Source: Siphonodentalium dalli
Lineage: Eukaryota > Mollusca > Scaphopoda > Gadilida > Siphonodentaliidae
Direction of reading: 5' to 3'
Assembly: GCA_032622095.1 (NCBI GenBank)
Contig: CP136064.1
Span: 260,813,863-260,877,862 of the forward strand
DNA: 64,000 nucleotides
Shown: piece after piece, positions 20,767 through 41,423 of the stretch
Layout: every line of letters begins with the position of its first letter
Numbering within the stretch: the first letter of the stretch is position 1
Program-made: the position numbers and the translations under genes
The notes under the pieces: model-generated
What the model saw: the letters and a program-made list of their open reading frames with translations, nothing else
What the model was told of the DNA's origin: nothing
Databases searched by the model: none

Positions 20767-22328
20767 TGTGATGAAGATGTGTTGTAACCTAGGCTGCAGT
20801 CATAGGAACAACTGTTGTGATGTAAGATTGAGTTGATACCTGGCTGCAGTCATAGAACACCTGTGTGATGTAAGATTGAGTTGATATCTGGCTGCAGTCA
20901 TAGAACACCTGTGTGATGTAAGATTGAGTTGATACCTGGCTGCAGTCATAGAACACCTGTGTGATGTAGTAAGATTGAGTTGATATCTGGCTGCCATCAT
21001 AGAACACCTGTGTGATGTAAGATTGAGTTGATATCTGGCTGCCATCATAGAACACCTGTGTGATGTAAGATTGAGTTGATATCTGGCTGCAGTCATAGAA
21101 CACCTGTGTGATGTAAGATTGAGTTGATATATGGCTGCCATCATAGAACACCTGTGTTATGTAAGATTGAGTTGATATCTGGCTGCAGTCATAGAACACC
21201 TGTGTGATGTAAGATTGAGTTGATATATGGCTGCCATCATAGAACACCTGTGTGATGTAAGATTGAGTTGATATCTGGCTGCAGTCATAGAACACCTGTG
21301 TGATGTAAGATTGAGTTGATATCTGGCTGCCGTCATAGAACACCTGTGTGATGTAAGATTGAGTTGATACCTGGCTGCAGTCATAGAACACCTGTGTGAT
21401 GTAAGATTGAGTTGATATCTGGCTGCCGTCATAGAACACCTGTGTGATGTAAGATTGAGTTGATACCTGGCTTCAGTCATAGAACACCTGTGTGATGTAA
21501 GATTGAGTTGATATCTGGCTTCAGTCATAGAACACCTGTGTGATGTAAGATTGAGTTGATATCTGGCTGCAGTCATAGAACACCTGTGTGATGTAAGATT
21601 GAGTTGATACCTGGCTGCCGTCATAGAACACCTGTGTGATGTAAGATTGAGTTGATACCTGGCTGCAGTCATAGAACACCTGTGTGATGTAAGATTGAGT
21701 TGATATCTGGCTGCCATCATAGAACACCTGTGTGATGTAAGATTGAGTTGATATCTGGCTTCAGTCATAGAACACCTGTGTGATGTAAGATTGAGTTGAT
21801 ATCTGGCTGCCATCATAGAACACCTGTGTGATGTAAGATTGAGTTGATATCTGGCTGCCATCATAGAACACCTGTGTGATGTAAGATTGAGTTGATATCT
21901 GGCTGCAGTCATAGAACACCTGTGTGATGTAAGATTGAGTTGATACCTGGCTGCCGTCATAGAACACCTGTGTTATGTAAGATTGACTTGATATCTGGCT
22001 GCCGTCATAGAACACCTGTGTGATGTAAGATTGAGTTGATACCTGGCTGCCGTCATAGAACACCTGTGTGATGTAAGATTGAGTTGATATCTGGCTGCAG
22101 TCATAGAACACCTGTGTGATGTAAGATGAGTTGATACCTGGCTGCAGTCATAGAACACCTGTGTGATGTAAGATTGAGTTGATATCTGGCTTCAGTCATA
22201 GAACACCTGTGTGATGTAAGATTGAGTTGATATCTGGCTGCCATCATAGAACACCTGTGTGATGTAAGATTGAGTTGATATCTGGCTGCCGTCATAGAAC
22301 ACCTGTGTGATGTAAGATTGAGTTGATT
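20767..22328. repeat. 48-bp minisatellite, about 32 copies
   Basis: Unit CATAGAACACCTGTGTGATG plus TAAGATTGAGTTGATAYC plus TGGCTGCMRT, about 48 bp. Because 48 is a multiple of three, minus-strand frames stay open with a 16-residue period. Open frames exist in more than one phase, so this is a length artefact, not a repeat protein. Variant types (ATCTGG/ACCTGG; GCAGTC/GCCATC/GCCGTC) alternate. Confidence 0.95.
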
Positions 22329-29978: not shown

Positions 29979-30065
29979 ATACTCAGACCCCTCACAAAAA
30001 GAAAATCTTGGCATCGTCGTCTCTTACAAAGTTAAAGTCAAGTTAATAATGGGGTTTGGTTCAGG
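29979..30065 (+). CDS. arrb: Beta-arrestin, antepenultimate coding exon (C-domain)
   Basis: Beta-arrestins are cytosolic adaptors that bind phosphorylated G-protein-coupled receptors, stop G-protein coupling and link receptors to endocytosis. This 87-bp exon follows acceptor TTCTACAG and ends at donor GG|GTGAGT. It encodes YSDPSQKEN and LGIVVSYKVKVKLIMG, corresponding to the LGILVSYRVKVKLVV strand of vertebrate beta-arrestins in the second arrestin fold. One base completes a codon begun upstream, and two bases are left for the next exon, which supplies the missing G. No upstream arrestin exon was found in the window, so the preceding intron is probably longer than 29.9 kb. The YSDPSQKEN stretch lies where vertebrate proteins vary. 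Confidence 0.95.
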
Positions 30066-36885: not shown

Positions 36886-37032
36886 GGATTTGGCAGTGGA
36901 ACTTCCATTCACATTAACCCATCCTAAGCCATTAGACTCACCGCCTCCATCCAGACCATCTAGTGCAGCTCCACCTAGTGGAGAAAACTATGACACGCCC
37001 ATTGACACAAATCTCATACAGTTAGAAACAAG
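36886..37032 (+). CDS. arrb: Beta-arrestin, penultimate coding exon (clathrin-box linker)
   Basis: This 147-bp exon follows acceptor TTTTTTCAG and ends at donor AG|GTAGGT. Translation continues in phase from the previous exon: [16 protein letters not shown], then a Pro/Ser-rich linker, then [13 protein letters not shown]. VELPFxLxHPKP closes the arrestin C-domain. LIQLE fits the clathrin-box consensus (L-hydrophobic-x-hydrophobic-acidic) and sits where vertebrate beta-arrestins have LIEF or LIEL, so clathrin binding is inferred to be conserved. Visual arrestins generally lack this box, supporting a non-visual type. The exon leaves two bases (AG) that make Ser with the first base of the next exon. 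Confidence 0.95.
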
Positions 37033-38100
37033 GTAGGTTGATTTTTTCTGTAGTCCAAAAATTAAAGATAAATGTTCCACTTCCAGTAAGAAACAGTGTC
37101 TTTGATTGGTCAGAGAGCCGCGCAGCATATCCCATGTTTACATTTAGAGCCATTAACATATTGAAACCAAGACAACCATTTCATCGCCTCTCCTTTGCCT
37201 GCTTTATCATAACATCATTTACGGAAGAATGTCAAATTTCCATGAATGACCAGAACTATCGGCAGAACATATTATATTTGTTATTTTCGCGACTCGGTTG
37301 AACATAGGCTCCAAGCTGTCAATGTCACACCATGTTACCGTCAATCCACCACAATAACTTATAATGTTCTGATTCGTGTTGATATTCTATTGAACTTTGA
37401 AGGCTACTCTTATACAACAATTGATTTTATAATGCACTCGATATCATGGATACAAAAAGAGGTTTAGCAAGGGATGTCTAACTGTCTTAATATAGTGTTG
37501 TTCGGAAAAAGTTCTCGAAAGTTGCTTGTTAAGTTTTCTAACTTTTGTTTTAACTCGTTTCACCCGTACAAACATAAATTATTTTAATATAAAATAACAA
37601 CTACGAATTCTAGCAACTTAGTTTTAATCTGGAAAGACAGGTAAACTTATTTAGCTTCAGTGTGCATATCATGCAACATATTACAATATATATATAATAC
37701 ATGTACAATATACATATTTATGTATCATGAATATCCCATATTTTATCATGATTACTCTTTGATATACAGGCATATTAATCCCTACAAGAAATTGATTGAC
37801 ATTCAGACTGCAATATTAATAAACAAATCTTTCACTTTCAAAACAAATTTATTATAAAAAAAACATTATAATGGGTGGGTGGGAGGGTGCTGCACACACT
37901 TTTGAAGCTGAACGTAGAATGATCGCTATATCTACCGTCTCTCCACAATACCTTAGCAGTCCATGCTTAAGCCATCCAAAATATTATACGAATACTCCTC
38001 ATGCGTAATCATCCTCCACAAATCACCGAAATAATTCTTCATTGAACTTCAATAAATTAATTTATTTATGATAGTTTGTTTTATACAAATATAATTTTCG
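37033..38100. other. Intronic sequence, mostly unassigned
   Basis: 37455-37550 (GGTTTAGCAAGGGATG, TCTAACTGTC, AGTTGCTTGTTAAG) resembles 25225-25310 and marks an unnamed dispersed repeat. The rest has no recognised element or exon. Confidence 0.4.
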
Positions 38101-38119
38101 ATGCCAAGATCACATTATA

Positions 38120-38708
38120 TACCACATATTCCATATTATATACCATTTGGAAGAGGAACCAAAAATATATATATATTCTACCAGAATACACAACACCTGT
38201 GGCCTAGGAGTGTCCACCAAGTGACAGAGATTCTCAGATTCACACCGAAACTTCTCCCGTTATTTACCCCAGAATGCATCAAAATTCACAACTAAGAGAT
38301 AAAGTTGTTCCCCTTCCATAGAGAATAATAGACTGGGAGTTCAGACTAGATCTAAATTAAGCATAGAACACATGTCGTTACCTTGACAAAAACACAGATT
38401 ATTGACCAGATATGTTTTGAAGCTTCCTAATATGACATACATTATGCCCTAAGTAATCGACCTCTTAACCAAAGCAGAATTATGGGTAACTTTTCAGGAT
38501 TTAGTCGGAAATATGGCTTGTTGCCATTCATCGGAAAGCTCTCGCCGAGAGCTTTCCAATGAATGGCAACAAGCCATATTTCCGACTAAATCTGACTAAA
38601 TCCTGAAAAGTTACCCATAATTCTGCTTTGGTTAAGAGGTCGATTACTTAGGGCATTACTGTATGTTGTATCTAATGTGATCTAGAGATTCGAAAATTAA
38701 GTGAGCCT
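38120..38708 (+). mobile_element. Family G element containing family A
   Basis: CCATATTATATACCATTTGG and CCCCTTCCATAGAG match G. The right end TTCGAAAATTAAGTGAGCCT is followed by TTAA 38709-38712. The left limit is uncertain. Confidence 0.55.
38440..38661. mobile_element. Family A palindromic MITE nested in G
   Basis: TA flanks, ends CATTATGCCCTAAG and GGGCATTACTG. A short repeat of GACTAAATC lengthens the right arm. Confidence 0.8.
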
Positions 38709-38951
38709 TTAATGCAGTTGATTTCACATGATTTAAGCTCCTCATGTGATATTCACAATCAGCAATCGAATACGGACAACCAACCATTGAATAGGCATAT
38801 CTGGACCTCTACACAAAAGCAATAATGTACACAACAAAACACTTTTTAGATGTTCTAACTAACAGCAAACCATGTCTAAAAGTGATAAAAATTCACACAG
38901 ACGATGATCAATATAGTTGGCGCGAATAAAGCTTGACTGGATATTCCAACT

Positions 38952-39256
38952 TTGGATTAAACATCCAGAGGGCACGAACAGGTCAACACCTAATGTGACC
39001 TTCATTCTTACCGTGGATTAAACATCCAGAGGGCACGAACAGGTCAACACCTAATGTGACCTTCATTCTTACCGTGGATTAAACATCCAGAGGGCACGAA
39101 CAGGTCAACACCTAATGTGACCTTCATTCTTACCGTGGATTAAACATCCAGAGGGCACGAACAGGTCAACACCTAATGTGACCTTCATTCTTACCGTGGA
39201 TTAAACATCCAGAGGGCACGAACAGGTCAACACCTAACGTGACCTTCATTCTTACC
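38952..39256. repeat. 61-bp minisatellite, five copies
   Basis: 305 bp, exactly five units of ATTAAACATCCAGAGGGCAC plus GAACAGGTCAACACCTAATG plus TGACCTTCATTCTTACCG. Near-identical copies suggest recent expansion. Confidence 0.9.
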
Positions 39257-39322
39257 TTCATCATGGATAGTATCTTTCTCATATATAAAAAAGCATGTCT
39301 ATTATTCAAAGAAATTATTTAA

Positions 39323-39575
39323 ACCTTCCATGACTGGAGCTTCCTGAAACTTTGCGAAAACCCTGTGCTAATACATTCATTATATATACGAGTCACCCAT
39401 AGGGAGACTTGCATATTTAAGAGAATACATTGGCCTAACATTATTTACCTTGACGTTGTAAGCCATGCATTCTCTTATATATACGAGGCTCCCTATGGAA
39501 GACTCACATATATAAAAGAATGCACTGGTACAGGATATTTAATGATGCACCAGCGCAGCTCCTGCCATGAAAAGG
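39323..39575. mobile_element. Family E TTAA element
   Basis: TTAA 39319-39322 and 39576-39579. Ends ACCTTCCATGACTGGAGC and GCTCCTGCCATGAAAAGG, with two hairpins around TAACATTATTTACC. Confidence 0.75.
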
Positions 39576-39584
39576 TTAAACACA

Positions 39585-39910
39585 ACGGTATAAATCAGTA
39601 CGTTCAATATATAAGATTTAGACATGACGGTATAAATCAATACATTCTATACGGTATAAATCAAATCAATACATTCAATATATAAGCTTTAGACATAACG
39701 GTATAAATTAATACGTTCAATATATAAGCTTTAGACATAACGGTATAAATTAATACGTTCAATATATAAGCTTTAGACATAACAGTCTAAATCAATACAT
39801 TCAATATATAAGCTTTACACATAACAGTCTAAATCAATACATTTAATATATAAGATTTAAACATAACGGTCTAAATCAATACGTTCAATATATAAGCTTT
39901 AGACTTAACG
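39585..39910. repeat. ~42-bp minisatellite, about seven copies
   Basis: Unit ACATAACGGTATAAATTAAT plus ACGTTCAATATATAAGCTTT plus AG, with diverged first units. Confidence 0.85.
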
Positions 39911-40048
39911 GAAACTGACTGTTTTTACTTTCTATTACATTTTATCCAATAATGTACTAAAATTTTAAACTACATTCTCGATTTAACATGTTTGGGGGTG
40001 TAGCAACTATTAATATACCACAATTTGCAAATCGTTTTTGTTGTTTAA

Positions 40049-40372
40049 CCCTTTACCCAACAGAACGGCCCTGTGCCAATGCATTCTCTTATATATGCGA
40101 GTCGACCATAGGTCGCCTCGCATATATAAGAGAATGCATTGGCTTAACACATATTAAAAATGATAAAATTGTCAAAGAATGTAGAAAAATATTATAAAAA
40201 TTGTTTAAAAATGTAAGAAAAAATTATAAAATTGTTAAAGAATGTAAGAAAAAATGGTAAAAAGTGTTAAAAAAAGATTTTTTTAGGCCAATGCATTCTC
40301 TTATATATTTTTTTTACAATTTTAATAATTTATTCTTATATTCTTAACATACTTATTTTGTAGGTTAAAGGG
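40049..40372. mobile_element. Chimeric B/C TTAA element beside last arrestin exon
   Basis: TTAA 40045-40048 and 40373-40376. The left end and first hairpin are family B (CCCTTTACCCAACAG). The right part (TTATTCTTATATTCTTAAC, TTATTTTGTAGG) is family C interior, and the second hairpin is cut to one arm. It ends where the duplicated arrestin acceptor block begins. Confidence 0.7.
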
Positions 40373-40418
40373 TTAAAACTTTGATAACCACTTCATCAAT
40401 TACATTATTCTTTTTCAG

Positions 40419-40461
40419 TGGTGACCAGTTTCATGTACATAAAGATGTTTATGTTCTTTAA
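40419..40461 (+). other. Duplicated terminal-exon start (alternative or decoy exon)
   Basis: The block 40373-40447 matches 40458-40532 with four differences. Each copy contains polypyrimidine, acceptor TTTTTCAG and the first 29 coding bases of the last exon; the one coding difference is synonymous (GAC/GAT). If this acceptor is used after the exon at 36886, the frame reads SGDQFHVHKDVYVL and stops at TAA 40459-40461, losing the AP2 motif. It could be a real alternative end or a splicing decoy. Confidence 0.7.
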
Positions 40462-40503
40462 AACTTTGATAAACACTTCATCAATTACATGTTTCTTTTT
40501 CAG

Positions 40504-40603
40504 TGGTGATCAGTTTCATGTACATAAAGATGATGATTTTATATTTGAGGATTTCGCGAGACTTCGTCTGAAAGGGCAGGACGAGGATGATACGGAAGCA
40601 TGA
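40504..40603 (+). CDS. arrb: Beta-arrestin, last coding exon (AP2-binding tail, stop)
   Basis: After acceptor TTTTTCAG this exon completes Ser and encodes GDQFHVHKDDDFIFEDFARL, then RLKGQDEDDTEA and TGA at 40601-40603. FEDFARLRLKG matches the vertebrate beta-arrestin 2 tail. The Phe and Arg residues of this stretch are the known contacts to the AP2 beta-appendage, and in the inactive state the tail packs against the N-domain. The acidic end is short, as in beta-arrestin 2, without the long C-terminal extension of beta-arrestin 1. 3' UTR follows. The first clear AATAAA downstream is at 41850-41855, but whether it is the polyadenylation signal is unknown. Confidence 0.97.
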
Positions 40604-40676
40604 CAACTTGACGTTTGTCAATGTTTTGTTCTGAATGTGTTGATATGGACACTTTGATGCTCAATGTTACACTCAG

Positions 40677-41030
40677 CCTTGTATAGATAGCTGGGACTAT
40701 CAACCAAATCAACTGAGTCTGTTGTTTCACATGTTTCATCTTCACTGTAATCCTAATTTCTTCATGTTTTAATCATGTGACTGATGTCAGCGGTCAGAAG
40801 AAACATGTAATATCCTTGTATAGATAGCTGGGACTATCAACCAAACCACCTGAGTCTTGTTTAACATGTTGATTTAACTATAATCCTAAAGTGGAAATTC
40901 TTCATGTTTTAATCATGTTACTGATGTCAGAGGTCATAGGTCAGGAGAAGCATGTTTGTTTTCTTGCTGATGGAATCTTACTCTAATTTCTCTATCTTAT
41001 AATCATGTGACTGAATCAGAATTATTTTGT
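40677..41030 (+). repeat. ~137-bp direct repeats in arrestin 3' UTR region
   Basis: CCTTGTATAGATAGCTGGGA recurs at 40677 and 40814, followed in both by TTCTTCATGTTTTAATCATG and ACTGATGTCAG. A third, diverged copy starts near 40951. Confidence 0.8.
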
Positions 41031-41040
41031 GAGTGCTTAA

Positions 41041-41163
41041 CACTGTCATGACAGGAGCTGCGCTGGTGCAGCATTAAATATCCTGTGCCAGTGCATTCTC
41101 TTATATTGTGAGTCTCCCATAGGGAGCCTCGCATATATAAGAGAATGCACTGGTTTACAAGGG
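41041..41163. mobile_element. Family E element, single-hairpin form
   Basis: TTAA 41037-41040 and 41164-41167. Left end CACTGTCATGACAGGAGC, one hairpin, then TTTACAAGGG. The second half is deleted. Confidence 0.7.
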
Positions 41164-41167
41164 TTAA

Positions 41168-41423
41168 CGTTCTCTATACTAAACACTCATTTAACGGTTA
41201 CCCTTCTCTATACTAAACACTCATTAAAGGGTTATTTAACCTTCTCTATACTAAACACTCATTTACGAGTAGTTCTGATCAATGAATTGGAATCCTTCTG
41301 TATTTGTATTATCTTTTCATCTGCCTCTCCTCTGCTCATTGTTTTCTGGACACCGCTCCAAATGAATGACAGACCATTCTAATATATATTTTTATATCTG
41401 GCTGAAAGAATCCATTTAATGGG
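41168..41423. mobile_element. Family J element with triplicated left end
   Basis: TTCTCTATACTAAACACTCA occurs three times in about 110 bp before the J body. The right end reads ATTTAATGGG before TTAA 41424-41427. Confidence 0.65.

Follow-up and report, generated by a model that had tools for sequence, protein, structure and literature searches.

A tandem-duplicated acceptor before the last coding exon of a Siphonodentalium dalli beta-arrestin gene and a possible AP2-less C terminus

Beta-arrestin exons

The window, meaning the whole 64-kb stretch of DNA that was analyzed, contains three coding exons on its plus strand (29979–30065, 36886–37032, and 40504–40603). By sequence similarity, they are the 3′ end of the gene of a non-visual (beta) arrestin. 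Their search by tblastn, with the sequence of human beta-arrestin-1 as the query, gives three plus-strand pieces with E-values from 0.002 to 7.5e-9; a minus-strand piece with an E-value of 3.6 was taken as a chance match. The first exon (29979–30065; E 0.002) belongs to the arrestin C-domain and encodes YSDPSQKENLGIVVSYKVKVKLIMGFGSG, with the last codon being split, between the splice sites ctacag/A and AGG/GTGAGT. The penultimate coding exon (36886–37032; E 7.5e-9) carries the clathrin box LIQLE and ends at the donor AAG/GTAGGT. It is followed by the repeat-rich last intron, which extends over 37033–40503 when spliced to the downstream acceptor, and by the regular last coding exon (40504–40603; E 1.1e-4), which encodes (S)GDQFHVHKDDDFIFEDFARLRLKGQDEDDTEA and the stop codon TGA. 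The last intron also holds five copies of a 61-bp unit (38953–39256; 99 percent matches). An N-domain exon was not found in the window with this query. Since tblastn gives only the three plus-strand pieces and one chance-level match, the earlier exons are probably located before the window start.

The joined translation of 106 residues finds beta-arrestin-2 as its best PDB match (E 1.3e-23, residues 2–103 of the query). The Pfam profile Arrestin_C is matched with 19.1 bits, which is below the cut-off of 27.7, and only over positions 100–136 of 137, since the remaining profile falls in exons outside the query. In the PDB comparison, the clathrin box LIQLE of the tail aligns with LIEFE and LIELD. 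In addition, the tail encoded by the last exon is similar to the arrestin peptide bound to AP2 in 2IV8 (E 1.7e-4); the AP2-binding motif is present in the regular exon. As expected for an animal gene, the DNA of 40373–40603 yields 0 matches against phages and plasmids, and a 48-residue exon query yields 0 confirmed relatives among 230 pattern stretches of IMG/VR.

Tandem duplication of the acceptor

The border between the last intron and the last coding exon is present twice. The stretch 40373–40447 recurs at 40458–40532 with 71 of 75 bases identical and a period of 85. The upstream copy (40373–40447, plus strand) comprises the intron tail, the acceptor, and the beginning of the coding sequence (46 intron and 29 coding bases), and the downstream copy of the 85-nt unit occupies 40448–40532 on the same strand. 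Three of the differences lie in the intron part (40388, 40406, and 40407) and one in the coding part (40425), where GAC/GAT is synonymous. Tandem Repeats Finder also detects the duplication (period 85, score 292), and a blastn search of the window with the upstream unit returns the second copy with an E-value of 9e-30, far beyond chance as sequence. Hence, the 75-bp block that the first-pass annotation had described, with its 85-bp period, four differences, and a lone synonymous one in the coding part, is borne out. Both the genomic duplication and the reading frames are confirmed.

The synonymous GAC/GAT difference carries no weight on selection, since it is a single site, the comparison of coding (1/29) with intron (3/46) differences gives a Fisher p of 1.0 in a test without power, and 14 of the 84 possible single changes in the 29-base coding part are synonymous. 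Near-tandem duplications are common in the window: one scoring rule finds 29 loci with periods of 20–399 in 64 kb, the arrestin locus, arrays or satellites, and MITE hairpins included. Hence, little coincidence is needed for one of them to straddle an acceptor. A second tandem duplication, with a period of 137, lies at 40677–40936, probably within the 3′ untranslated region of the arrestin gene, where 40677–40720 and 40814–40857 agree by 95 percent. Elsewhere, a 48-bp satellite of ~32 copies (20792–22327) adjoins the sole N run of the window.

MITE in the upstream copy

New relative to the earlier annotation is a TTAA-flanked, piggyBac-like MITE at 40045–40376, which is situated within the leftmost part of the upstream copy. 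It shows CCCTTTACCC-type termini, its right end being diverged, and an internal near-perfect hairpin (40075–40143) with arms that are 97 percent complementary. Six further copies were examined, which begin at 2647, 19045, 19951, 45215, 50297, and 51352; these start with TTAACCCTT and end with AAAGGGTTAA. The TTAA target duplication and CC[C/T]T termini are present in the seven MITE copies examined and are described as hallmarks of piggyBac-type MITEs (PMC2872659). The inner parts of the copies differ, which suggests nested or shuffled elements.

Directly left of the MITE, the bases 40035–40044 (plus strand; 8/10 identical to 40448–40457) are probably the left 10 bases of the upstream unit, severed by the MITE. 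With the MITE set aside, the unit measures 85 nt in each copy, with 6 differences and no filler, and this is probably the true duplicated unit. An end-joining filler was considered for the 10-nt stretch 40448–40457; the MITE model was preferred because the match sits exactly at the left TTAA of the MITE. Taken alone, the 8/10 match is weak, since ten places at 39900–41200 match this stretch equally on either strand. The argument is carried by its position, as only 4 of the 540 TTAA sites at positions 1000–63000 have at least 8/10 matches just upstream. One of the four is 40458 itself, another is the left TTAA of the MITE (40045), and the remaining two fall within further copies of the right part of the MITE. 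The simplest order of events is probably the duplication first and then the insertion of the MITE into the TTAA of the upstream copy. Divergence fails to order the two events, since the MITE at 40045–40376 differs from the majority of four other copies at 12 of 167 sites and the duplication copies differ at 6 of 85.

A MITE in the TTAA of the upstream copy suits a real duplication of some standing. A false duplication made by the assembly, with a MITE-bearing and a MITE-free allele laid head to tail, is improbable in our judgment. It would account for the copies differing by the presence of the MITE, as a heterozygous insertion could look alike. Six differences in 85 bases (7 percent) are, however, much for alleles, and an overlap would span 85 bases only. 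Some invertebrates reach several percent heterozygosity. For the three vertebrates treated in PMC9516828, the values are 0.22 to 0.95 percent. The same source identifies heterozygous alleles as the main origin of false duplications in two of the three earlier assemblies it studied, one hummingbird assembly being the exception, and names gaps between the copies as a mark of false pairs; at the arrestin locus there is no N run near, the 100 N of the window lying at ~20.7 kb.

Predicted products of the two acceptors

The donor at 37033 can be combined with the acceptors before 40419 and 40504, which gives two predicted products. Joining of 37032 to 40504 is predicted to yield a product ending in NLIQLETSGDQFHVHKDDDFIFEDFARLRLKGQDEDDTEA, and joining of 37032 to 40419 one ending in NLIQLETSGDQFHVHKDVYVL, each followed by the stop. 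In the possible alternative last exon, the coding part (40419–40461, plus strand) would encode (S)GDQFHVHKDVYVL and the stop codon TAA. The frame is kept for nine codons as previously proposed (a split Ser and GDQFHVHKD), followed by VYVL and the TAA at 40459–40461, and with LIQLE the predicted product also retains the clathrin box, in agreement with the first-pass annotation. The tail loss it had claimed stands with regard to the AP2 motif, which is absent from the predicted upstream product, but not with regard to its extent, which would amount to 23 residues (DDFIFEDFARLRLKGQDEDDTEA) instead of eleven. The predicted upstream frame is open and ends before the AP2/clasp segment. Both predicted stops fall in the last coding exon.

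A short new tail needs no special cause, since a stop is reached within five codons at 908 of the 3,280 positions of the last intron. In the upstream product, VYV follows an acidic residue, much like FIF in the regular tail. The VYVL end might partly replace the β-strand clasp and hence perhaps be no plain truncation; this idea is weak because 187 of the 2,723 stop-free triplets of the last intron are equally hydrophobic. The upstream copy was also considered as an internal cassette exon and rejected: of the six GT sites at 40419–40503, the five located before the end of the stop (40421, 40428, 40435, 40447, and 40453) look like poor donors by eye. A cassette reading in which 40446 is joined to 40504, followed by hand, likewise ends in a stop.

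Acceptor strength and proposed origin of a second splice site

Acceptors, in bits, and branch points were scored with approximate matrices. The acceptor before 40504 reaches 9.18 bits and the one before 40419 reaches 8.95 bits on this approximate scale, a difference of 0.23, and they rank first and second among the 173 AGs scanned at 37040–40700. Neither copy looks strong enough to dominate alone, since the same approximate matrix gives 13.75 and 14.61 for the two remaining acceptors of the arrestin gene. Throughout the window, at least 8.95 bits are found for 27 of 3,426 AGs on the plus strand, the two arrestin sites included, and for 21 of 3,470 on the minus strand. Branch-point candidates at −24 and −35 are common to both copies, and an extra one at −32 occurs in the upstream copy only. 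A stable RNA fold over either acceptor was not found beyond shuffled sequences (z 0.76; an equal or better fold in 161 of 200 shuffles), and local folding does not distinguish the two copies. The site scores make use of 40419 plausible. They are no proof of use, since a third, decoy-like acceptor at the diverged right end of the MITE (40364–40376, plus strand), which would give ETRLKG and a stop, reaches 8.15.

The duplication may be real and yet silent in RNA: 40419 would be a decoy, recognition would prefer the copy adjoining the regular last exon, and the upstream one would be drifting. The tract of the upstream copy, with TA versus GT downstream, and its slightly lower score point in this direction, as do the frequent near-tandem duplications of the window (29 loci), most of which are presumably without function. 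The difference of only 0.23 bits and the richer set of branch-point candidates in the upstream copy argue against a silent copy, which we regard as unlikely while still deserving serious attention.

The explanation that we favor, with a probability somewhat above even, is a recent 85-bp duplication across the last intron–exon border that gave rise to another 3′ splice site, almost on a par with the first, with some use of 40419 and a product that is a young, tolerated by-product. The new site would lie 85 nt upstream of the original, and the spliceosome would pick it in some transcripts, since both copies are equipped with a branch-point region, a pyrimidine tract, and an AG. We consider low-level use of 40419 likely. 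The product would keep the clathrin box, lose the AP2 motif and the polar-core arginine, and end in VYVL. A stop in the last exon is not expected to trigger NMD. As the upstream stop sits in the last coding exon, NMD of the upstream product would not be expected, provided that the 3′ untranslated region contains no intron.

Functional implications

The C-tail of arrestin, which harbors the AP2 site, serves as a clasp on the N-domain, and its removal enhances receptor binding, as described in PMC11173308 and PMC6251804. The internalization of CCR5 is reported to be reduced by removal of the AP2 motif, not by removal of the clathrin box and not by R395A alone (PMC12815460). Hence, of the two contacts, the predicted upstream form would retain the one that matters less. 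By analogy, easier receptor binding and weak promotion of endocytosis would be expected of it. If 40419 is used, receptor desensitization would be split from AP2-driven endocytosis in one arrestin gene, without gene duplication, and an alternative splice site would have been caught close to its birth.

Another reading is a maintained regulatory isoform, with the choice of 40419 being controlled by tissue and furnishing an AP2-less arrestin in addition to what may be the only non-visual arrestin of the animal. This reading is favored by the preserved frame, by the position of the stop within the last coding exon, and by the fact that the functional module is what would be lost; moreover, a single non-visual arrestin is said to be expressed in invertebrates (PMC11173308). 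Against these points stand the lack of a sign of selection in the powerless test described above and the frequency at which the last intron offers a stop within five codons. Maintenance as a regulatory isoform is very improbable, and a maintained function of the upstream acceptor is unlikely altogether. The upstream product is most likely a young, tolerated by-product and not a maintained isoform. Very improbable as well is an elaborate version in which twin acceptors supply two beta-arrestin forms by a duplication young in the lineage, the VYVL form being half-latched and endocytosis-poor, with VYV clasping the N-domain in place of FIF. This form might then be latched without the polar-core arginine and the AP2 contact.

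Comparison with known systems

Among the literature matches listed, no title or abstract start reports an AP2-less splice form of an invertebrate beta-arrestin, which leaves its absence unproven. The available part of PMC2515105 provides background on the three-element interaction and contains nothing on arrestin splicing. From the sequence, an AP2-less isoform is a fair hypothesis; p44, caspase-cut arrestin-2, and the fixed loss of exon 16 in some fish visual arrestins come closest to it. p44 is a short splice variant of vertebrate arrestin-1 for which enhanced rhodopsin binding is reported (PMC11173308, PMC6251804). It resembles the predicted 40419 product as a natural arrestin that lacks the C-tail owing to splicing. 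However, p44 is a visual arrestin, whereas the product predicted here would be a beta-arrestin with a clathrin box, and its end would derive from a tandem-duplicated acceptor.

The clathrin box LIELD of arrestin-2 comprises residues 376–380, so the caspase cut that leaves arrestin-2 (1–380) falls just after it. I377 is named in PMC12815460. The C-tail is likewise lost in this caspase product (PMC6251804), which arises by proteolysis and has no new C terminus, whereas splicing to 40419 would add VYVL. In teleost ARR3 and ghost shark SAG, the last arrestin exon, exon 16, is reported as lost (PMC5501109). This loss is fixed and concerns visual arrestins, whereas the regular exon stays in the present gene and the loss would be optional. 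With regard to mechanism, intron changes by tandem duplication are described in Drosophila, where copying of a splice motif leaves the spliceosome with an additional site (PMC2891723). The Drosophila cases involve an exonic proto-splice site from which a new intron is made, whereas an existing acceptor was copied in the arrestin gene.
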